DNA of 40,245 nt from Desulfuromonas sp. (GTDB taxonomy: Bacteria; Desulfobacterota; Desulfuromonadia; Desulfuromonadales; Geopsychrobacteraceae): assembly GCA_002869665.1 (NCBI GenBank), contig PKUG01000028.1:1-40245 (forward strand). Reading direction: 5' to 3'. A model generated the notes under the pieces. That model saw only the letters and a list, made by a program, of their open reading frames with translations. It had not been told where the DNA came from and made no database searches. Made by a program: the position numbers and the translations under genes. This document shows, one piece after another, positions 1,897 through 14,127 of the stretch; the stretch's first letter is position 1, and each line of letters begins with the position of its first letter.

Positions 1897-3582
1897 GTGA
1901 ACGAGTTTTTAAATCTCCTCCAGCAGATGTCGATTTTCCTGATCATCGCCTATCTGTTCAGCAAGTCCCCGGCGTTCAAGGCGCTGGCGGGTGAAGTCCT
2001 CCACTTCAAGCACCGGGTTCTCCTTTACTGCATTTTCACCGGATTCGCGATCTTCGGTATCTATATCGGTCTGCCGGCCTACGACGCCTTTGCTGACTCA
2101 AGCCCCATCGGTATCGTTCTTGCCGGACTGGTCGGCGGGCCGCTACTCGGCCTCTGGGTCGGGGCGACGGCCGGCTGCTATTCACTCTATTTAAGCGGCT
2201 GGAGCGAACTTGGTGTGATCTCCCTGGTGCTGGCTGTCCTTCAGGGGGGGATGGGCGGGATCGTTTGCAACTATTATCAGCAGCGTGGCAAATCAGAGCA
2301 GCTGTTCAACCCCCTGGTGGCCATGAGTGTCACCTGTGCCGGGGTGGGCCTGCATCTGGCGCTGGTGTTGCTGCTGGCAGGCGAGGATATCGTCGCCATT
2401 GCTGTGCCGAGTCCACTGGTGTTGCCGACTTTGCTGGCCAACTCACTGGGGGCCGGGCTGTTTATGCTGATGATGCGCGACCAGAAGCGGATGATCGACC
2501 GGGTCGGCGTCTTCTTTTCGGCCCGTGCGTTACGAATTGCCGAGCGCAGTCTCGGGATCTTCGGCCGCGGATTCAATGTCGAAACGGCCAAGGAGCTGGC
2601 ACGGATTATCTATGATGAGACCGGAGTCGGTGCCGTCGGAATCAGTGACCGTGAACGGGTGTTGGCTTTTGTCGGTCAGGGTGCCGATCACCACCTGGAA
2701 GGGCTGGCCATTGCCTCGCCGCAGACCCGTCAGGCGATCGACGAAAACCGGGTTATTTACGCCGATGGCGTCAGGGAAAAGTTCCAGTGCGCCCTGTCGG
2801 ATAACTGCCCGCTCGCTTCGGCGCTGATCGTCCCGCTGCGCGTCGATAACGAGGTGGTCGGCACGATCAAGCTCTACGAGCCGCAGGATCGCCTGTTCAT
2901 GAATCTCAACCGGACCCTCGGTGAGGGGATCGCCCAATTGCTTTCCGAGCAGTTGCTGCGTTACCGCTATGAGAACCAGAAAACCCTGCTGACCAAGGCG
3001 GAGCTCAAGCTGATCCAGGCCCAGGTCAATCCCCACTTCCTCTTCAACGCGCTCAATACCATTATCGCCGTGGTGCGCAGTGACAGCGATCAGGCGCGTA
3101 ATCTGCTGCTGCACCTGTCGAACTATTTCCGTAAAAACCTTAAGCGTTCAAGTGATCTGGCGACCCTTGAGGAAGAACTCGACCACGTCAACTCCTACCT
3201 GGTGATACAGCGCGCCCGTTTCGGTGATAAACTTGTTGTCGATCTGGATATCGATCCTGACCTGCTGCAGGCCAAGGTGCCGACCTTTACCCTGCAGCCG
3301 ATCGTCGAAAACGCCGTCAAGCATGGCATTTCGAATATGATCGGCGGTGGTACGGTCAAGATCAGTGCTCATCGGAACGGAAAGAAAATGGTGGTGACGA
3401 TCGAGGACAATGCCGGTTTCTACTGTGAAAAGCTGAGTTCAGACGGCCTAGGCATGAACATTGTCGATAAGCGGATTAAAAGTTATTACGGCCAACCCTA
3501 TGGAACAGAGATCGAGTGCGTTCCAGATACCATGACCCGCGTGACATTGTCATTTCCATTGGAGAAGGTGGTCCAGCCATGA
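1897..3582 (+). CDS. LytS/BtsS-family sensor histidine kinase (5TM LYT receptor, GAF, His_kinase/HATPase)
   Basis: GTG start; hydrophobic N-terminus, GAF-like middle, QAQVNPHFLFNALNTI (LytS-type H-box), LQPIVENAVKHGI (N-box). Confidence 0.9.
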   Translation: MNEFLNLLQQMSIFLIIAYLFSKSPAFKALAGEVLHFKHRVLLYCIFTGFAIFGIYIGLPAYDAFADSSPIGIVLAGLVGGPLLGLWVGATAGCYSLYLSGWSELGVISLVLAVLQGGMGGIVCNYYQQRGKSEQLFNPLVAMSVTCAGVGLHLALVLLLAGEDIVAIAVPSPLVLPTLLANSLGAGLFMLMMRDQKRMIDRVGVFFSARALRIAERSLGIFGRGFNVETAKELARIIYDETGVGAVGISDRERVLAFVGQGADHHLEGLAIASPQTRQAIDENRVIYADGVREKFQCALSDNCPLASALIVPLRVDNEVVGTIKLYEPQDRLFMNLNRTLGEGIAQLLSEQLLRYRYENQKTLLTKAELKLIQAQVNPHFLFNALNTIIAVVRSDSDQARNLLLHLSNYFRKNLKRSSDLATLEEELDHVNSYLVIQRARFGDKLVVDLDIDPDLLQAKVPTFTLQPIVENAVKHGISNMIGGGTVKISAHRNGKKMVVTIEDNAGFYCEKLSSDGLGMNIVDKRIKSYYGQPYGTEIECVPDTMTRVTLSFPLEKVVQP

Positions 3583-4292
3583 TCCGAACCCTGATTGTCG
3601 ATGACGAACGCCATGCCCGCGAAGAGCTCGAAGTCCTGCTGCTGGAACTGGGTGACATCGAGATTGTCGGGACCTGCGCCAACGCCATGGAGGCGGTCAA
3701 GGCGATCAATCATGAGCGTCCCGAGTTGATCTTCCTTGATATCAAGATGCCGGTGATCGACGGCTTTACCCTGCTCGGGATGATCGAGGAAGAGATCATG
3801 CCCTACGTCGTCTTCGTCACGGCCTTTGATGAGTATGCCCTCAAGGCCTTTGACGAAAAGACCCTCGATTACCTGCTTAAGCCGGTCGACCCGCAGCGCC
3901 TGGCCCAGACAATGAAAAAGGTCCACGGGGCGCTCGACAACAATGAAAAACCAGCCCTGCCACAGGCCCAGATCAATCGCATCCCCTGCACCAGCGTCAA
4001 CCACATCAAGCTGGTCGACCCGCAGGATGTCGAATATGTTCATTCCGATATCAGCGGCGTCCACGTTTTCACCGCCGAGGGGAACTATTTCTCCGAACTG
4101 ACCCTCAAGGTTCTGGAAGGGCGTGCCGGTCTGCTGCGCTGCCACAAGCAGTATCTCATCAACCCCGCCAAGGTCGACGAGATCATCCCCCTTGAAAACG
4201 GCATGGCCGAAATCAAGACCATCGCCGGTGCGCGCCTGCCGGTCAGCCGCCGTTGCCTGCAGCAGGTCAAAGCTGCTTTTGGACTCAAGTAA
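3579..4292 (+). CDS. LytTR-family response regulator (BtsR/YehT-like)
   Basis: ATG overlaps the kinase stop (ATGA); MIRTLIVDDERHAREELEVLL receiver plus C-terminal LytTR (LLRCHKQYLINPAKVDEI). Confidence 0.92.
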   Translation: MIRTLIVDDERHAREELEVLLLELGDIEIVGTCANAMEAVKAINHERPELIFLDIKMPVIDGFTLLGMIEEEIMPYVVFVTAFDEYALKAFDEKTLDYLLKPVDPQRLAQTMKKVHGALDNNEKPALPQAQINRIPCTSVNHIKLVDPQDVEYVHSDISGVHVFTAEGNYFSELTLKVLEGRAGLLRCHKQYLINPAKVDEIIPLENGMAEIKTIAGARLPVSRRCLQQVKAAFGLK

Positions 4293-4339
4293 TCCTACTG
4301 AATAAATTTTCTTCCTATTTTTATCCTTACGAATAGGCT

Positions 4340-4360
4340 GTTTTCGCGTTCTGCGAAAAC
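4340..4360. repeat. Perfect hairpin abutting the BtsR-like operator
   Basis: GTTTTCGC-GTTCT-GCGAAAAC. Confidence 0.7.
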
Positions 4361-4387
4361 CGCTTATTTTCACTTTTCGACCGCTTA
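4359..4387 (+). promoter_or_regulatory. Putative BtsR/YehT-type LytTR operator: direct repeat ACCGCTTA-N13-ACCGCTTA
   Basis: Two identical octamers at 4359-4366 and 4380-4387, 21 bp apart, downstream of the LytTR regulator gene. Confidence 0.75.
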
Positions 4388-4503
4388 CCTTTCCGATTCT
4401 GCCGGTCGTCCCTATGCGCTTTTTTTCTTTTCTGCCCGGTCCTATTCTCTCCTCAACAGCAACACACAATTCGGCAACCTATTTAACAACAAGGAGAAAG
4501 ATC

Positions 4504-4638
4504 ATGGGTGAAGCAGCACTGTCTTACTGGCTCGAAGAGTTCATCAACCCCTCCCCGCAACCGGCCGATGCCGACGTTGAATACACCGCCCTGTGCCTGG
4601 GCGAGACCGACGAAGACTGGCTTTATGGGTCGGACTAA
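4504..4638 (+). CDS. Small 44-aa protein of unknown function (acidic)
   Basis: AAGGAG RBS, ATG at 4504: MGEAALSYWLEEFINPSPQPADADVEYTALCLGETDEDWLYGSD. Confidence 0.7.
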   Translation: MGEAALSYWLEEFINPSPQPADADVEYTALCLGETDEDWLYGSD

Positions 4639-4675
4639 CGTGTCATCACTGCAAAGGATGATCACTGTGACTTGA

Positions 4676-4707
4676 GGCCCGATTACTCCAGTAATTGGGC
4701 CTTTTGT
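4676..4707 (+). terminator. Terminator/attenuator-like hairpin between the small ORF and the decarboxylase-citrate operon
   Basis: GGCCCGATTACTCCAGTAATTGGGCC followed by TTTTGTCTT. Confidence 0.65.
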
Positions 4708-4729: not shown

Positions 4730-5023
4730 ATGTCCGTCAAAATTATCATTGTCCGTCATGTGCCGGAAGATCGGGAGAAGGCCCAGGCATTGAAGCCGTT
4801 GCTGCTTGAGATGCGCACCCTGGCCAATGCCCAGCCCGGATACGTTTCAGGGGAAACCCTGGTCAATTACGACGATCCCAGTGAGTACCTGGTCATCAGC
4901 ACCTGGCAAACGCTCAAGGACTGGAACCACTGGCTGAAGGACGAAAGACGCAGGGACGTGCAGGCCAAGGTCGACGCACTCCTGGGGACCGAGACTCTTT
5001 ATTCGGTCTATTACAACGGTTGA
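4730..5023 (+). CDS. Antibiotic-biosynthesis-monooxygenase (ABM)-like small protein
   Basis: MSVKIIIVRHVPEDREKAQALKPLLLEMRTLANAQPGYVSGETLVNYDDPSEYLVISTWQTLKDWNHWL. Confidence 0.75.
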   Translation: MSVKIIIVRHVPEDREKAQALKPLLLEMRTLANAQPGYVSGETLVNYDDPSEYLVISTWQTLKDWNHWLKDERRRDVQAKVDALLGTETLYSVYYNG

Positions 5024-5053
5024 AAACGCGTTCAAGACGTAGAGGATGACGAG

Positions 5054-6604
<1,551 letters not shown>

Positions 6605-6623
6605 GCGGGAGGCGAAAAGGATC

Positions 6624-6980
6624 ATGACTATGGGTTTTCACAATATTATTGACGGGCACGGGCTCGGAATCATGCTGACCGGGATGCTGATCGTCTTTTT
6701 CGGCCTGTCGTTGTTGAGCGGCTTCATTATCGTTCTGTCCAGGCTGGCCGGCTCGCACCAAGTTGCCGCTGCCCATTTGGCACCGGCGCCCAAGGTCGAA
6801 AAAGCCGAGCCGACAGTTGAAGAGCTGCTGGCCGTCACCTCGTTGGTGATTTACATGGAAAGTGAACGCAGTCTCGGGGAATGGACCCACTCATCCGTTC
6901 CGCGCCAGAGTCGTCGCGGCTCAATCTGGACCTCTGCCGGCAAGATGCGGTCATTGTCCGAGGGAGGATCCCATGCGTAA
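6624..6980 (+). CDS. OadG/MmdD-like small membrane subunit of a decarboxylase pump
   Basis: Single N-terminal TM GIMLTGMLIVFFGLSLLSGFIIVLSRL; C-terminal SIWTSAGKM motif; position between alpha subunit and biotin carrier. Confidence 0.78.
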   Translation: MTMGFHNIIDGHGLGIMLTGMLIVFFGLSLLSGFIIVLSRLAGSHQVAAAHLAPAPKVEKAEPTVEELLAVTSLVIYMESERSLGEWTHSSVPRQSRRGSIWTSAGKMRSLSEGGSHA

Positions 6981-7401
6981 GTATCAGTTGAAACTGAATG
7001 ATAAAGAATTCGATGTGCATCTGAAAGATCTCGGTACCGACGAAGCCCACCTGGAAATCAACGGTAAGGACTACTCCGTCGCGATTTCATCGGTGTCGGA
7101 GATCATTCCCGAGAGTGCCCTCGATCGTCTGTGCCCGTCTGTTCCGGCTGCCGCTTTGAAACCGCAGTCGGCCGTGGTGAGCTCTGATGACGGCACCGTT
7201 CTGGCACCGATTCCCGGATCGATCCTGCAGATTTTCGTCAAGGTCGGTGAGACGGTCAAAACAGGCCAGCCCCTGTTCAAGATGGAAGCGATGAAGATGG
7301 AAAACGACATCAACGCCCGCCTCGATGGCACCGTCACCGAGATCAAGGTTGCGGCAGGCGATTCGGTTAACCAGGGGGAAGTGCTGATGCTGATTGCCTG
7401 A
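6973..7401 (+). CDS. Biotin carboxyl carrier protein (MmdC/OadA biotin domain-like)
   Basis: Biotinylation motif EAMKMEND; VLAPIPGSILQIFVKVGETVKTGQPLFKMEAMKMEND. Confidence 0.9.
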   Translation: MRKYQLKLNDKEFDVHLKDLGTDEAHLEINGKDYSVAISSVSEIIPESALDRLCPSVPAAALKPQSAVVSSDDGTVLAPIPGSILQIFVKVGETVKTGQPLFKMEAMKMENDINARLDGTVTEIKVAAGDSVNQGEVLMLIA

Positions 7402-7445
7402 GCAGTCGGGCACGATAGTCATCAAGAGGGCACGGAGAGCATAAA

Positions 7446-8567
7446 ATGGACATGCTGACCAACTTCATCATGAGTACCGGGTTTGTCGACATCACATGGC
7501 AGAATATTGTGATGATTCTTTTCGGCTGCCTGTTTATCTATCTGGCGATCACCAAGGGGTATGAACCTTTGCTGCTGCTGCCGATCGGCTTCGGCCTGAT
7601 CGTTGGGAATATCCCGATGCCGCCCGGAATGGGGAGCAGCGAAGAGGGCTCGTTTTTCTACACCATCTACCAGGGAGTCAGCCAGGGGATCTATCCGCCG
7701 CTGATCTTCCTCGGGGTCGGAGCGATGACAGACTTCTCCTCCATGCTTAGCAATCCCAAGCTGGTTCTGCTCGGCGCCGCCGCCCAGTTCGGTATTTTTC
7801 TGACCCTGATCGGCGCGCTGTTCCTCGGCTTTACGCCACTCCAGGCGGGCGCCATCGGCATCATCGGCGGTGCTGACGGCCCGACGGCGATCTTCCTGGC
7901 CTCCAAACTGGCCCCGGAGCTGTTGGGATCCATCGCCATTGCCGCCTACTCCTACATGTCGCTGGTCCCGGTTATTCAGCCGCCGATCATGCGTCTGCTG
8001 ACGACCAAGGAAGAGCGGCAGATCCGCATGGTGGTCGCACGTCAGGTCAGCAAGAAGGAAAAGATCATCTTCCCGATCGTCGCCTTTCTGATCTGTACCC
8101 TGATCGCGCCCGGCTCGATGGTTCTGATCGGGTGCCTGTTCTTTGGCAACATTCTGAAAGAGAGCCTGGTCACCGAGCGGCTGGCCAATACCGCCCGTAA
8201 TGCGATGATCGACATCCTGACGATCCTGCTCGGATTTTCCGTTGGCGCCCATACGCTGGCTGAAAATTTCCTCACCTGGCAGTCGATCGGCATCTTCGTC
8301 ATGGGGGCCACGGCCTTTGCCTGTGCGACCGCCGCCGGGGTTCTGTTCGCCAAGCTGATGAACGTAATCTGCAAGACCAAAATCAACCCGCTGGTCGGCG
8401 CCGCCGGGGTGTCCGCTGTGCCGAACTCGGCGCGGGTTGTCAACAAGGTCGGTCTTGAGGCCGACCCGGGGAATTACCTGTTGATGCATGCCATGGCGCC
8501 GAATGTCGCCGGTGTCGTCGGCTCGGCGATCGCCGCCGGTGTTTTGCTTACGGTCTTGTTACCTTAG
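7446..8567 (+). CDS. Na+-translocating decarboxylase beta subunit (OadB/MmdB family)
   Basis: Polytopic; GVGAMTDFSSMLSNPKLVLLGAAAQFGIF; GAIGIIGGADGPTAIFLAS; ends NAARVVNK-like SARVVNKVGLEADPGNYLLMHAMAPNVAGVVGSAIAAG. Confidence 0.93.
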   Translation: MDMLTNFIMSTGFVDITWQNIVMILFGCLFIYLAITKGYEPLLLLPIGFGLIVGNIPMPPGMGSSEEGSFFYTIYQGVSQGIYPPLIFLGVGAMTDFSSMLSNPKLVLLGAAAQFGIFLTLIGALFLGFTPLQAGAIGIIGGADGPTAIFLASKLAPELLGSIAIAAYSYMSLVPVIQPPIMRLLTTKEERQIRMVVARQVSKKEKIIFPIVAFLICTLIAPGSMVLIGCLFFGNILKESLVTERLANTARNAMIDILTILLGFSVGAHTLAENFLTWQSIGIFVMGATAFACATAAGVLFAKLMNVICKTKINPLVGAAGVSAVPNSARVVNKVGLEADPGNYLLMHAMAPNVAGVVGSAIAAGVLLTVLLP

Positions 8568-8584
8568 CGGAGTCGAGGAAGACA

Positions 8585-9595
8585 ATGGTTGTCAGGCTGA
8601 TCAGTGAACGCGACCAGAACAGCGCCCGTCAGCTTGTCGAGGCGCAGGGGTTCCGTTTTGAAGAGAACTTCGATGTTCTGGTCGGGGTGTTCGACGCCGG
8701 CGAGCTGATTGCCACGGCGGCCCGCGAGGGGCATATCTTCAAGATGATCTGTATTCGCGAGGACTTCCAGGGGGGGAGCCTGCTCGGCGAATTGCTGACC
8801 GAACTGATCGCCAGCTGCAGCGCCTGCCGGCGCGACAACTTCTTCGTCTTCACCAAGCCGGAGCGGCGTTCTTCATTCGAGCAGCTCAATTTCCGCGTGC
8901 TCGTCGAGCACCCGCAGCTCTGCCTGCTCGAATACGGCAACGGTCTGCAGAATTACCTGCGTCAGCAGCGTGAGCTGGTGCGGCCGGGCAATAACGGTGC
9001 GATCGTCATGAACGCCAACCCCTTCACCCTCGGGCACCTCTACCTGGTGGAACAGGCCGCAGCGCAGGTCGATCAACTCTACCTTTTCGTCGTCCGCGAG
9101 GACTGCTCAACCTTCCCATTTGCGACGCGCATCGCCCTGGTCCGTGAGGGGGTGGCGCACCTGGCCAACGTCAGTGTTCTCGAGACTTCCGATTACGCCG
9201 TCAGCCGGGTCACCTTCCCGGCTTATTTTCTCAAGGCCGGGGCCGATGTCGAGACGCTGCAGATGGAGGTCGACCTGCTGTTGTTCGCCCGTTGCCTGGC
9301 ACCGGCCTTCAACATCACCACGCGCTTTGTCGGCACCGAGCCCTACTGCCGGGTGACGCGCCACTACAACGAAACCATGATCCGTCTGCTCGCCGAGGAA
9401 GGGATCAAAACCGTGCTGCTGTCGCGCCGCGAGGTCAAGGGGGAACCGATCAGTGCCTCGCTGGTACGGCGGCTGCTGAAGAAGGAAGCTTTCGAAGAGT
9501 TGGACAGTCTCGTCCCCGAGACGACCCTGGCCTGCCTGCGTTCGCACCAGGCGGCCGAGATACATGAGCGCCTGCGCGCGCAGGGGAGGCATTGA
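8585..9595 (+). CDS. citC: [Citrate (pro-3S)-lyase] ligase
   Basis: N-terminal GNAT-like segment plus nucleotidyltransferase NGAIVMNANPFTLGHLYLVEQAA; FVGTEPYCRVTRHYNETM; next to citD. Confidence 0.9.
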   Translation: MVVRLISERDQNSARQLVEAQGFRFEENFDVLVGVFDAGELIATAAREGHIFKMICIREDFQGGSLLGELLTELIASCSACRRDNFFVFTKPERRSSFEQLNFRVLVEHPQLCLLEYGNGLQNYLRQQRELVRPGNNGAIVMNANPFTLGHLYLVEQAAAQVDQLYLFVVREDCSTFPFATRIALVREGVAHLANVSVLETSDYAVSRVTFPAYFLKAGADVETLQMEVDLLLFARCLAPAFNITTRFVGTEPYCRVTRHYNETMIRLLAEEGIKTVLLSRREVKGEPISASLVRRLLKKEAFEELDSLVPETTLACLRSHQAAEIHERLRAQGRH

Positions 9596-9855
9596 TGGAA
9601 ATAAAACGGGCGGTTCAGGCCGGGACCATGCAGTCGAGCGATCTGATGGTGTTCATCGAGCCGGCAGATGAGCTTGAGATCGAAATTGAATCGACGGTGA
9701 AAAAACAGTTTGAACATCTGATTCGAGCCCAGATCGAAGCGGCACTGGAGACGTTCGCCATCTGCAGCGGACGAATTCGGGTCAACGACCGCGGTGCTCT
9801 CGATTACGCCATCGCCGCTCGGCTGGAAACCGGGCTGCGACGAGCGTGCAGCTGA
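9595..9855 (+). CDS. citD: Citrate lyase acyl carrier protein (gamma subunit)
   Basis: MEIKRAVQAGTMQSSDLMVFIEP...RIRVNDRGALDYAIAARLETGLRRA; overlaps citC stop. Confidence 0.9.
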   Translation: MEIKRAVQAGTMQSSDLMVFIEPADELEIEIESTVKKQFEHLIRAQIEAALETFAICSGRIRVNDRGALDYAIAARLETGLRRACS

Positions 9856-9878
9856 TTCGGCTCAAAGAGGAGAAGAAG

Positions 9879-10361
9879 ATGCAAGGTGGTTGGTGCAAAG
9901 AATTAACAGAGGGGCGGCGCTTTATCCTCAAGATCATGCCGGGAGAAGAGGTTGCCAGGCAACTGCTGCTGTTCGTACAGCAGGAGGGGGTGAAGAACGC
10001 CGTCATCGTTTCGGCGATCGGTTCGGTCAAAAACGTCCATTTTCGTGGCATCAAGTCGGGCGCGAAACGGCCGATCACCGAACCGCGCATGCGTCAGCAT
10101 CGCGAAGAAGGCCCTTTCGAACTGCTTGGTCTCGAAGGGAACCTGATCGCCGGTGAGCAGGGGGAGGTCGACTGCCACCTGCACGTCATCCTGGCGAAGA
10201 GTTCCGGCGAGGTGATCGGCGGCCACTTCTACGACGCCGAGGTTTTCGCCAGCTGCGAAATCCTGCTGACCGAACTGCTGATCGAAGGGGTCGAGCGCCA
10301 TGTCTCCAAGAGCGCCGGGACCCCGACCATTTTTATCAACGAGGAGTCTAGCCGTGGCTGA
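9879..10361 (+). CDS. DUF296/PCC-domain protein
   Basis: AGAGGAG RBS; GRRFILKIMPGEEVARQLLLFVQQEGVKNAVIVSAIGSVKNVHF...CHLHVILAKSSGEVIGGHFYDAEVFASCEILL. Confidence 0.8.
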   Translation: MQGGWCKELTEGRRFILKIMPGEEVARQLLLFVQQEGVKNAVIVSAIGSVKNVHFRGIKSGAKRPITEPRMRQHREEGPFELLGLEGNLIAGEQGEVDCHLHVILAKSSGEVIGGHFYDAEVFASCEILLTELLIEGVERHVSKSAGTPTIFINEESSRG

Positions 10362-11274
10362 ATTCAGACTGCGCCGTTCATTGCTCTACGTGCCGGGAAA
10401 TATGCCCTCGATGCTGCAGAATATTCCGATCTTCCACAGCGACTGTATCATGGTCGACCTGGAAGACGCCGTCCCCTACAGCGAGAAGGATGCCGCCCGG
10501 GTGCTGGTCCGCCAGTTCCTCGACAGCTACCGGGACCACAACAAGGAGATCTTCGTCCGCATCAACGGCCTCAACACCGCTTGGTGGGAGGACGACCTGC
10601 GCACCATCCTGCCGGCCCTGCCGGATGGAATCCGGCTGCCCGAGGCCAACGGCCCCGAGCTGGTCGAGAAGCTCGACACCATGCTCACCGAGTATGAGGA
10701 GGAACTCGGTCTTGAGATCGGTCATTTCAAGATTCTCCCCTCGATCGAGACGGCCGAAGGGGTCATCAACTGTATCAGGACGGCGAAAAGCTCATCACGC
10801 CTGATCGGCCTCGCTTTCGGCGCCGAAGACTATACGGCAAGCCTGGAGATCGAGCGCACCAAAGGGGGCGAGGAGCTTTTTGCGGCGCGTACACGGGTGG
10901 TCTGGGCCTGCAAGGCCGCCGGTATCCAGGCGATCGACACCATCTTCCCGGATGCTTCGGACATGGAGGCATTGGAACGGGAAACCCGCCTGATCAAAAC
11001 CCTCGGTTTCTCCGGCAAATCCCTCGTCAACCCGCGTCAGATCGATGTCGTCCACGATGTCTTCAGGCCCAAGCAGGAAGAGGTGGATTACGCGCTGTAG
11101 GTCGTAGATGCAATCCGCCGCGCCCGCGAGATGGGCACCGGTGTCATTTCTCTGCGCGGCAAGATGATCGACGCCCCGATCGTCAAACGTTCGGTAACGA
11201 CCTTGAAGATTGCCCAGGCGCACGGCCTGATCGACATGGAACTGGACGAGGAGGAGATCTATGGTCAGAAATAG
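10354..11274 (+). pseudogene. citE: Citrate lyase beta subunit with in-frame TAG at 11098-11100
   Basis: GTG start AEFRLRRSLLYVPGNMPSMLQ...; after ...EEVDYAL-TAG the same frame continues VVDAIRRAREMGTGVISLRGKMIDAPIVKRSVTTLKIAQAHGLIDMELDEEEIYGQK-stop at 11274. Confidence 0.85.
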
Positions 11275-12799
11275 TCTGGGGCGTCTGCTCCCTGAAGAAT
11301 ACGCGGGACGAAAAGTCATCCCCTACCAGGACCCCTTTGCCCTGCAGCCGCAGGGCGCGCGCGCGACGCGGCCGCTGCGGCGGGTCAACCCGGGAGAGAA
11401 CAAGGTCCTCGGCGGGCTGCGCGCCGCCATCTAAGCCGCCGGTCTCAGGGATGGCATGTGCATCGCCACCCACCACCACCTGCGTAACGGCGACGCCCTG
11501 CTCGGTGCCCTGGTGCGCGAGATCGACGCCCTTGGCCTGCGCGATATCCGCATCGCTTCAAGTTCGGTCCACCCGGTTCACGCTGAACTGATTCCCTATA
11601 TCAAGAAGGGGGTGATCAGCGTCTTCGAATGTGGCGTCAACGGACTGATCGGCGAACTCGCCTCAAAGGGGGAGATCAGCACGCCGATTATCGTCCGCTC
11701 CCACGGCGGCCGGGCGCGCTCGATCATCACCGGCGAGGTCAAGATCGACGCTGCGTTCATTGCTGCGCCCTGCTGCGACCGCTTCGGCAACATGAACGGT
11801 TACTACGGTCCCTCGGCCTGTGGCAGCCTCGGCTACGCCCACACCGACGCCGAATACGCTGCCAAGGTTATTGCCGTGACCGATAACCTGAGCAATGGCG
11901 CCATTTCACCGGTGGCGATCTCCCAGTCCCTCGTCGATTACGTCGTCGAGGTCGAATCGCTCGGTGATCCGCAGAAGATCGTCTCAACGACGACCCGGGT
12001 CACCCGCGATCCGGTCGGGCTGCAGATCGCCAACTACGCCGCCCAGGTGATCGAAGCTTCGGGGCTGCTCTGTGACGGTTTCTCCTTTCAGACCGGTGCC
12101 GGGGGGATCTCCCTGGCCGTCGCCGAGAAAGTCCGTAACCTGATGGCCGAGCGGCAGATCAAGGGGAGCTTCGGTTGTGGCGGGATCACCGGTTATTTCG
12201 TCGACATGCTCGAAGAAGGGCTGTTCGAATCCCTCTATGATGTTCAGTGCTTCGATCTTAAAGCGGTCGATTCCATCGGCCGCAACCTGCATCACCAGGA
12301 ACTGAGCGCCGACGCCTATGCCAACCCCTTCAACGCCGGGGCGATGGTCAACCGGCTCGATGCCGTCATCCTCGGGGCGACGGAGGTCGACGTCAATTTC
12401 AACGCCAACGTCAACACCGAATCGAACGGCTATCTGCTGCACAACACCGGCGGACACTGCGATACCGCCGCCGGCGCCAAATTGTCGATCATCACCGCGC
12501 CGCTGCTGCGCGGGCGCTTGCCGATCATCCGCGACGCGGTGACGACGGTCTCGACCCCCGGCCACACGGTCGACGTCATCGTCACCGAGCGCGGGATCGC
12601 CGTCAACGACCACTGCCGCGAACTGAAAGAGGAGCTGATCCGGCGCAAACTGCCGGTCAAGGAGATCGAAGACCTGCGCCGCGAAGCCTGCCACATGACC
12701 GGCGAACCGCGTCCGGTTGAATTGATGGACGAGGTGATCGCGCTGATCGAATACCGTGACGGGAGTATTATCGATGCCGTACGCCGCGTTAAAGAGTGA
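11261..12799 (+). pseudogene. citF: Citrate lyase alpha subunit with in-frame TAA at 11432-11434
   Basis: MVRNSLGRLLPEEYAGRKVIPYQDPFALQPQ...ENKVLGGLRAAI-TAA-AAGLRDGMCIATHHHLRNGDALLGALV..., same frame to 12799. Downstream matches CitF (HSHGGR-like RSHGGRARSIITGE, GGHCDTAAGAKLS). Confidence 0.87.
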
Positions 12800-13277
12800 G
12801 CTGCTGGCCGCCCGCGATGCACGTCAGGAACGCCTTGACGCGCTCGTTCGCGGAACCGATAACACCCTGATCCAGCTGGCCCTGAATATCCCGGGGAAAC
12901 GGAAGTCCCCGCCGCGCTCCCGGGAGCTGCTCTACTGGGGCGAGGAACAACTGGAAGCGGCTTTTCCCAGCCTGCTGCGGCTGCACAGCGAAGAGGATGC
13001 CCTCGGCCCTTGGGCGCTGTTTTTGACCGCTGTTGAACCGCTTGAAGCCAAGCGCCGTTGTTGTGGCATCGAAGAGCAGGCCTCATTCGCCCGCCTGCTC
13101 GATCTCGATGTTTACAGCGCAACCGGTGAACAGATCGGCCGGCGCCGCCTCGGTCGCGCTCCGCGGCAGTGTTTTGTCTGCCGCGCTGACGCCGGAGAGT
13201 GCATGCGCGCCGGACGTCATGATCGGAAGAGAATCGATGAAGCTCTCAACCAACTGCTGCAATCAATACCGGCTTGA
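12774..13277 (+). CDS. citX: Holo-citrate lyase synthase (apo-ACP phosphoribosyl-dephospho-CoA transferase)
   Basis: MPYAALKSELLAARDARQERLDAL...RRRLGRAPRQCFVCRADAGECMRAGRH. Confidence 0.87.
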   Translation: MPYAALKSELLAARDARQERLDALVRGTDNTLIQLALNIPGKRKSPPRSRELLYWGEEQLEAAFPSLLRLHSEEDALGPWALFLTAVEPLEAKRRCCGIEEQASFARLLDLDVYSATGEQIGRRRLGRAPRQCFVCRADAGECMRAGRHDRKRIDEALNQLLQSIPA

Positions 13278-14127
13278 ATCCCTGGCCACCACCCTGGTGG
13301 ATGGCTTGCGGGCCGAGCTCTATCTGACGCCCAAGCCCGGGCTCGTCGACCTGGCCAACTCCGGGTCGCACAGCGACCTGAACCTTGAGCTGATGAACCG
13401 TTCGATCAGCCTGCTGCGTGGTTATCTCGACGAGCTGTGCGCGGCTCTGGCGGCGGGGCACAGCCTGGCTGAACTGGTTCCTCTCGGCCGCCGGGCCGAA
13501 GCCAGGATGTTTGCGGAAACGGGGACCAATTGTCACCGTGGCGGAATCTTTCTCTGCGGCCTGCTGCTGACGGCCGTCACCCGGATCGATGACCCCTCAA
13601 ATACCAGGGCGTTGCGGCTGGCGGTCGCCGAAGTCGCCGCCGAGTTCTTTCGCGCCCGTGCTGCCGAGGCGAGCCACGGCAATCGCGTGCGCCTGGAGTA
13701 TCCGCGTTCCGGAATCGTCGCCGAGGCCCTGGACGGCCTGCCGGCGCTGTTCGACACCTTCCTGCCGGCAATGGCAGAAACGGGAGTAGCCAAGTCGCTA
13801 CGCCCCTTCCTCGCCATGGCCCGGCTGATGCAGGTTGTCGAGGACTCAACCAGCCTCCATCGCTGTGGTCAGGCTGGGCTGGATACCGTCAAACGCGCCG
13901 GGGCCATGCTCGAATCGGTCATCTGCCACGGCCATTCCCCCTACCGATTTCTCGATCAGCTTGACAGCGAATTCAGGTGCCTGAACCTGACCATGGGTGG
14001 CGTCGCCGACATCCTCGGCCTCGGTTTCGGTTATTACAGCTTCCGCAGCAGTTTCGTCAGCGCAGCCGCGCCTGCCGAAACCAGGAATAGCTGGCTGGCC
14101 ACTTCCTCCCCTGCTCCGGCGTATTGA
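13237..14127 (+). CDS. citG: Triphosphoribosyl-dephospho-CoA synthase
   Basis: ELYLTPKPGLVDLANSGSHSDLNLELMNRS; ETGTNCHRGGIFLCGLLL; ATG inside the citX 3' end. Confidence 0.87.
   Translation: MKLSTNCCNQYRLESLATTLVDGLRAELYLTPKPGLVDLANSGSHSDLNLELMNRSISLLRGYLDELCAALAAGHSLAELVPLGRRAEARMFAETGTNCHRGGIFLCGLLLTAVTRIDDPSNTRALRLAVAEVAAEFFRARAAEASHGNRVRLEYPRSGIVAEALDGLPALFDTFLPAMAETGVAKSLRPFLAMARLMQVVEDSTSLHRCGQAGLDTVKRAGAMLESVICHGHSPYRFLDQLDSEFRCLNLTMGGVADILGLGFGYYSFRSSFVSAAAPAETRNSWLATSSPAPAY

Follow-up and report, generated by a model that had tools for sequence, protein, structure and literature searches.

The direct repeat ACCGCTTA-N13-ACCGCTTA at 4359-4387 of the window (the whole stretch of 40,245 nucleotides from Desulfuromonas sp. 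analysed here) is predicted to be a conserved BtsR-type activator site. We think it probable that a re-tuned BtsSR paralogue binds there, on an operator of three half-sites, and activates a gene for a 44-aa small protein, while the mmd-cit operon behind this gene would be reached by read-through at most. The features concerned are as follows.

1897-3582, + strand: BtsS-like LytS-type histidine kinase, altered pocket S/S/V/L (Pfam; E. coli BtsS comparison)
3579-4292, + strand: BtsR-type LytTR response regulator (NCBIfam NF008677; E. coli BtsR comparison)
4331-4369, + strand: terminator-like hairpin 3' of btsSR (terminator scan; fold z -5.9)
4359-4366, + strand: half-site 1, ACCGCTTA
4380-4387, + strand: half-site 2, ACCGCTTA
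4401-4408, + strand: half-site 3, GCCGGTCG, in the 21-bp register
4443-4448, + strand: predicted -10 box TATTCT, at conserved spacing from the last half-site
4491-4496, + strand: Shine-Dalgarno sequence AAGGAG (direct reading of the sequence)
4504-4638, + strand: 44-aa small-protein gene, the conserved target
4674-4703, + strand: intrinsic terminator with U tract TTTT, between the 44-aa gene and mmd-cit
4730-14127, + strand: ABM-mmdA-OAD gamma-biotin carrier-OAD beta-citC-citD-PCC-domain gene-citE-citF-citX-citG (Pfam, NCBIfam)

The response regulator scores 314.7 bits on the NCBIfam NF008677 BtsR equivalog model (cut-off 246), is 49% identical to E. coli BtsR over the full length and consists of a receiver and a LytTR domain as expected of BtsR. 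Moreover, an ACCRCTYA-N13-ACCRCTYA site lies 5' of its target and is kept in orthologous loci. The regulator is a BtsR orthologue. The sequence-only reading had noted the octamer pair with its 13-nt spacer between the LytTR regulator and the 44-aa ORF; this was borne out, the match being exact with 0 mismatches and the location right, and shuffled sequence gave 0.15 matches when up to 3 mismatches were tolerated. In the assembly (3.12 Mb, completeness 88.65%), the pair is the sole 0-mismatch match and no 1-mismatch match was found, with the strict pattern or with the degenerate BtsR pattern ACCRCTYA-N13-ACCRCTYA, which led us to reject a wider BtsR regulon in this genome. Autoregulation of btsSR was likewise rejected, because the window has no site before btsS. 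Two features had been missed in the sequence-only reading. One is the third half-site in register, with counterparts GCCGTTTG, GCCGGTCA and GCCGTTGG in G009, G013 and G025, respectively. The other is the overlap of half-site 1 with the 3' arm of the hairpin behind btsSR, so that the same DNA seems to serve two jobs.

It is evident that the array is conserved among relatives. BtsR was found at E < 1e-40 in 31 of the 277 genomes of the class sample, and 37 regions of 250 nt, each counted from a btsR stop, were scanned. The repeat occurs with up to 2 mismatches in 23 of them (9 perfect pairs, 20 or 21 nt apart, 9 with 1 mismatch and 5 with 2), where dinucleotide shuffles give 0.07 regions at 2 mismatches and none better. 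A motif-free count of distances between near-identical octamers peaked at 21 nt (17 regions vs 1.4 expected), followed by 20 nt (9 vs 1.4). Furthermore, 21 of 27 sites have a -10-like TANNNT 34-36 nt past their final half-site, and shuffled sequences reached 9 at most. Where btsR is separate from the target, the site stays with the target: L065, L066 and L138 have it about 1 kb further downstream, ahead of CstA, and the site of L087 is placed similarly; that of G025 is weak (4 mismatches). The shuffle counts together with the conservation 3' of btsR led us to reject a chance repeat. The sequence-only reading, which had called the repeat a BtsR/YehT-type operator of the LytS/LytTR pair and had suggested looking for it near the btsR genes of related genomes, is right on this point and on stronger grounds than it had claimed, namely the equivalog match, the conservation at orthologous loci and the btsT array of E. 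coli. As a separate observation, locus L048 (G093) carries two operators, seen about 390 nt onward from the btsR stop, one before the small gene and the other a three-half-site array before a CstA gene.

The closest known system, E. coli BtsS/BtsR (YehU/YehT) with btsT, shares the regulator family, the kinase layout, the half-site sequence and the 20/21-bp array with the window. Its btsT promoter (L071) reads GCCGCTCA-N12-ACCGCTTA-N13-ACCACTCA, three consecutive half-sites that go beyond the published pair, and the search for TANNNT at 34-36 nt gave no -10 there. In contrast to this system, the window operator stands directly 3' of btsR, the pocket residues of the kinase are replaced and the next gene is the 44-aa ORF followed by mmd-cit, not a CstA-family transporter gene. 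E. coli YpdA/YpdB (PyrS/PyrR) is also pyruvate-responsive and has the same LytS/LytTR layout, but the window kinase is 45% identical to BtsS vs 28% to YpdA, and the operator fits the BtsR motif.

Most relatives have one of two kinds of gene behind BtsSR, either a CstA-family gene (12 loci, recognised by their likeness to E. coli BtsT and by the CstA Pfam family) or TRAP-size genes of 361, 179 and 431 aa (about 11 loci). The TRAP assignment comes from several loci read as protein and from DctP and DctQ Pfam matches for one set. Among known structures, 4pet and 5cm6, which hold pyruvate, are the nearest to the TRAP binding protein; it is also related to 2hzk/2hzl, which is TakP, and to the ketoacid-binding 7ug8. 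These CstA- or TakP-like-TRAP-linked systems resemble the window in operator array and -10 spacing but stand next to transporter genes and have an unchanged RRCS pocket. An oxidoreductase gene pair, named NfnAB-like from a reading of its domains, follows BtsSR at L042 (9819-12207) and L043, in both with the intermediate pocket RRAA. L043 has a BtsR-type site before these genes, and none was found in the first 250 nt at L042. Our literature search returned nothing on BtsS in Geobacter, LytTR in deltaproteobacteria or LytS with a TRAP transporter.

Purifying selection marks the 44-aa ORF as a real gene: three pairs of genomes gave dN/dS values of 0.13/0.82, 0.09/0.73 and 0.11/1.18 (ratio about 0.1-0.16). 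It follows the site directly in seven genomes (G000, G009, G013, G025, G096, G101 and G093), and in G014 and G006 it lies 1.2 and 2.8 kb past btsR and is preceded, at a distance of about 137-158 nt, by a separate array of three half-sites. It is this gene, and not the citrate genes, that forms the conserved target across genera. Its product is 44-46 aa long across relatives, with the consensus MGEAAxxYWxEEF...GETDDDWKYGSD and five invariant residues (E3, G33, W39, G42 and D44 in 13 sequences), and matches no Pfam family. It was found in 13 of the 277 class genomes and in 2 of 396 phylum-wide genomes, both of the latter from the window's family. Four distant homologues (L148, L149, L150 and L151, in G052, G115, G119 and G082) have no BtsR site; a sigma-54-like TTGGCACA-N4-TCGCA was seen by eye upstream of them, and their neighbours gave no functional clue.

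With regard to the kinase, its domains (5TM-LYT, GAF and His_kinase by Pfam) are those of BtsS, to which it is nearer than to YpdA. Pyruvate is bound in E. coli BtsS by Arg72, Arg99, Cys110 and Ser113 (PMC10653868). These positions read S/S/V/L in the window, where the gap placement at Cys110 is doubtful and both arginines are aligned gap-free, so the description of the system as a pyruvate-sensing pair is not upheld. Among 33 readable relatives, the window counted among them, RRCS is retained in 26, RRAA stands in the two NfnAB-like-linked kinases, and both Arg99 and Cys110 are lost in five (window SSVL, G009 GSQS, G013 GLYS, G025 GLYA, G101 RSSS); the kinases of G093 and G096 are cut by contig ends. 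All five pocket-lost loci have the small gene directly 3' of the site and no recognised transporter gene adjacent, and the relatives adjoining CstA or TakP-like TRAP transporters retain the pocket. Nevertheless, the small gene is present alongside an intact pocket in G006 and G014, which shows that the link between this target and pocket loss is not strict. In a kinase tree built without the membrane columns, the window groups with G009, G013 and G025 in a single clade with good support (100/99), and G096 and G101 stand apart from it, although a single clade is not rejected (p 0.17). On this tree the pocket was lost once or twice, and the correlation between pocket and target thus reflects few independent events.

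The divergence is concentrated in the sensor part. Membrane domains are 44-50% identical in pocket-lost pairs including the window or G009, compared with means of 70-77% and a minimum of 57% in canonical pairs matched for kinase identity, and GAF identity is equal or higher than in these matched pairs. Between the window and G009, the kinase domain is 73% and the GAF domain 78% identical; the catalytic histidine is retained, and no btsS or btsR ORF of the clade is disrupted. Moreover, G009, G013, G025 and G062 carry a second BtsSR pair with an intact pocket. Since pocket and membrane domain diverged while GAF and kinase domains were conserved, the window kinase, a BtsS paralogue, most likely no longer responds to pyruvate, and its signal most likely enters via the GAF domain or another ligand.

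From the operator, promoter geometry, their conservation, small-protein selection and the terminator, all of which can be read in the DNA, we infer the following course. The phosphorylated regulator would bind ACCGCTTA, ACCGCTTA and GCCGGTCG at 21-bp spacing on one DNA face and would activate the promoter with the -10 box TATTCT, driving the 44-aa gene. The partner kinase would be the BtsS paralogue with input through the GAF domain or another ligand, and mmd-cit, behind the terminator, would receive read-through at most.

The mmd-cit operon resembles those citrate fermentation clusters that contain oxaloacetate decarboxylase and CitAB in its beta and gamma subunits, biotin carrier and citCDEFXG. 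It differs from them in the carboxyltransferase, which is of MmdA type (PF01039), not OadA; PDB matches place it in the methylmalonyl-CoA-decarboxylase / propionyl-CoA-carboxylase type, and it scores under the cut-off of TIGR01117. No CitAB and no citrate transporter were recognised in the window cluster, and no OadA-type alpha subunit (PYC_OADA, PF02436) was found in the operon. The sole PF02436 protein of the 88.65% complete assembly is part of pyruvate carboxylase. These results speak against the view that oxaloacetate decarboxylation here ends at pyruvate, and the operon could serve citrate fermentation towards propionate. As for the lyase genes, citC, citD and citF exceed their equivalog cut-offs, citE is below its own and citX was assigned by Pfam. 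There are in-frame stops in citE (TAG at 11098) and citF (TAA at 11432), whose frames, apart from the stops, share 80% and 75% identity with those of G009; the stops are either assembly errors or recent decay. Gene order in G009 is identical to the window. Several smaller points may be recorded on the surroundings. Between citD and citE lies the PCC-domain (PF03479) gene (9846-10361), and many of the cit clusters in this class have a counterpart at the equivalent position. The ABM-domain gene (4730-5023) that precedes mmdA is 78% identical to its G009 copy. For the CitG-like protein (13246-14127), the MdcB (malonate decarboxylase) model outscores CitG, both below cut-off. Before btsS, at 595-1694, there is an MglB/MglA-like ORF pair and then a tRNA-like stretch, seen by eye.

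A hairpin lies 3' of every small-gene copy examined beside btsR. Its U tract is short where mmd-cit is behind (TTTT in the window, TTT in G009) and longer in G013, G025, G096 and G101, and the short tracts leave room for read-through into mmd-cit, which begins with ABM 91 nt after the small gene. Adjacency of mmd-cit was found in one other genome, G009, where BtsSR, site, small gene and mmd-cit follow one another as in the window. Elsewhere in the genome of G013, the ABM-mmd-cit unit has no BtsR site within 18 kb. We fetched the cit-cluster surroundings of 17 of the 47 citC-bearing class genomes in addition to the window and G009; none of these 17 has an adjacent BtsSR, and the 16 beyond G013 show only weak 2-mismatch sites. 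Hence mmd-cit was rejected as the conserved target. The name "operator of the citrate operon" fits poorly with the intervening terminator and with the 44-aa gene as the cross-genus target, and leaves read-through as a possible route to mmd-cit.

The sequence-only reading went further and let a pyruvate-sensing BtsSR pair activate mmd-cit, with citrate breakdown ending at pyruvate. This is quite improbable. BtsSR and its operator are genuine, the gene order recurs in G009, both genomes have a short U tract and the 91 nt before ABM leave little space for another promoter; nonetheless, the pocket is changed to S/S/V/L, the terminator intervenes, G013 has mmd-cit without a BtsR site despite a sister BtsSR pair, the enzyme is MmdA-type rather than OadA-type, and citE and citF contain stops. 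We regard as unlikely, too, that a leaky terminator lets BtsR control mmd-cit in addition to the 44-aa gene, in response not to pyruvate but to another signal such as a metabolite of the citrate pathway. The changed pocket would agree with this, as would the order conserved in two genera, whose two genomes are the very ones with short U tracts, and G013, with a sister pair, also carries citC. However, no citC match was obtained in G025 (99% complete), where there is a sister pair as well, and the loss of arginines from the periplasmic pocket region would be odd for a carboxylate sensor. Decay of the sensor, leaving a relic kinase without input and an operator and small gene retained only for now, could account for the strongly diverged sensor domain and for the stops in citE and citF of this genome, but the intact btsS and btsR ORFs throughout the clade, the similarity to G009 in kinase and GAF domains, the catalytic histidine and the operator preserved in sister genomes make it a poor candidate as well. 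Finally, the octamers might be incidental, the first being part of the btsSR terminator hairpin, in whose strong 3' arm it indeed lies, and the second a chance copy. The excess of btsR-downstream regions with the repeat over shuffles (23 vs 0.07) leaves this hardly any weight, and since the array is also found at other positions and moves along with the target gene, we reject a role as terminator arm only. We thus prefer the re-tuned BtsSR paralogue acting on the 44-aa gene.

More tentatively, since we hold it at somewhat less than an even chance, this may be a BtsSR paralogue of one order that kept the E. coli operator code, lost the periplasmic pyruvate site, takes its signal via GAF or another ligand and controls an undescribed family of 44-46-aa proteins, a non-transporter target. 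To our knowledge, the ligand pocket has been mapped in few histidine kinases, and BtsS is one of these. The paralogue series RRCS, RRAA, RSSS, GSQS, SSVL, GLYS and GLYA under one operator code makes ligand change or loss in a receptor directly testable. The authors of the E. coli work suspected an additional intracellular stimulus (PMC5552118), and the series lets the GAF domain be probed as a hub for it. The conserved small-protein family gains a predicted regulator and promoter, and the analysis also predicts BtsSR control of keto-acid-binding-type TRAP transporters beyond gamma-proteobacteria.
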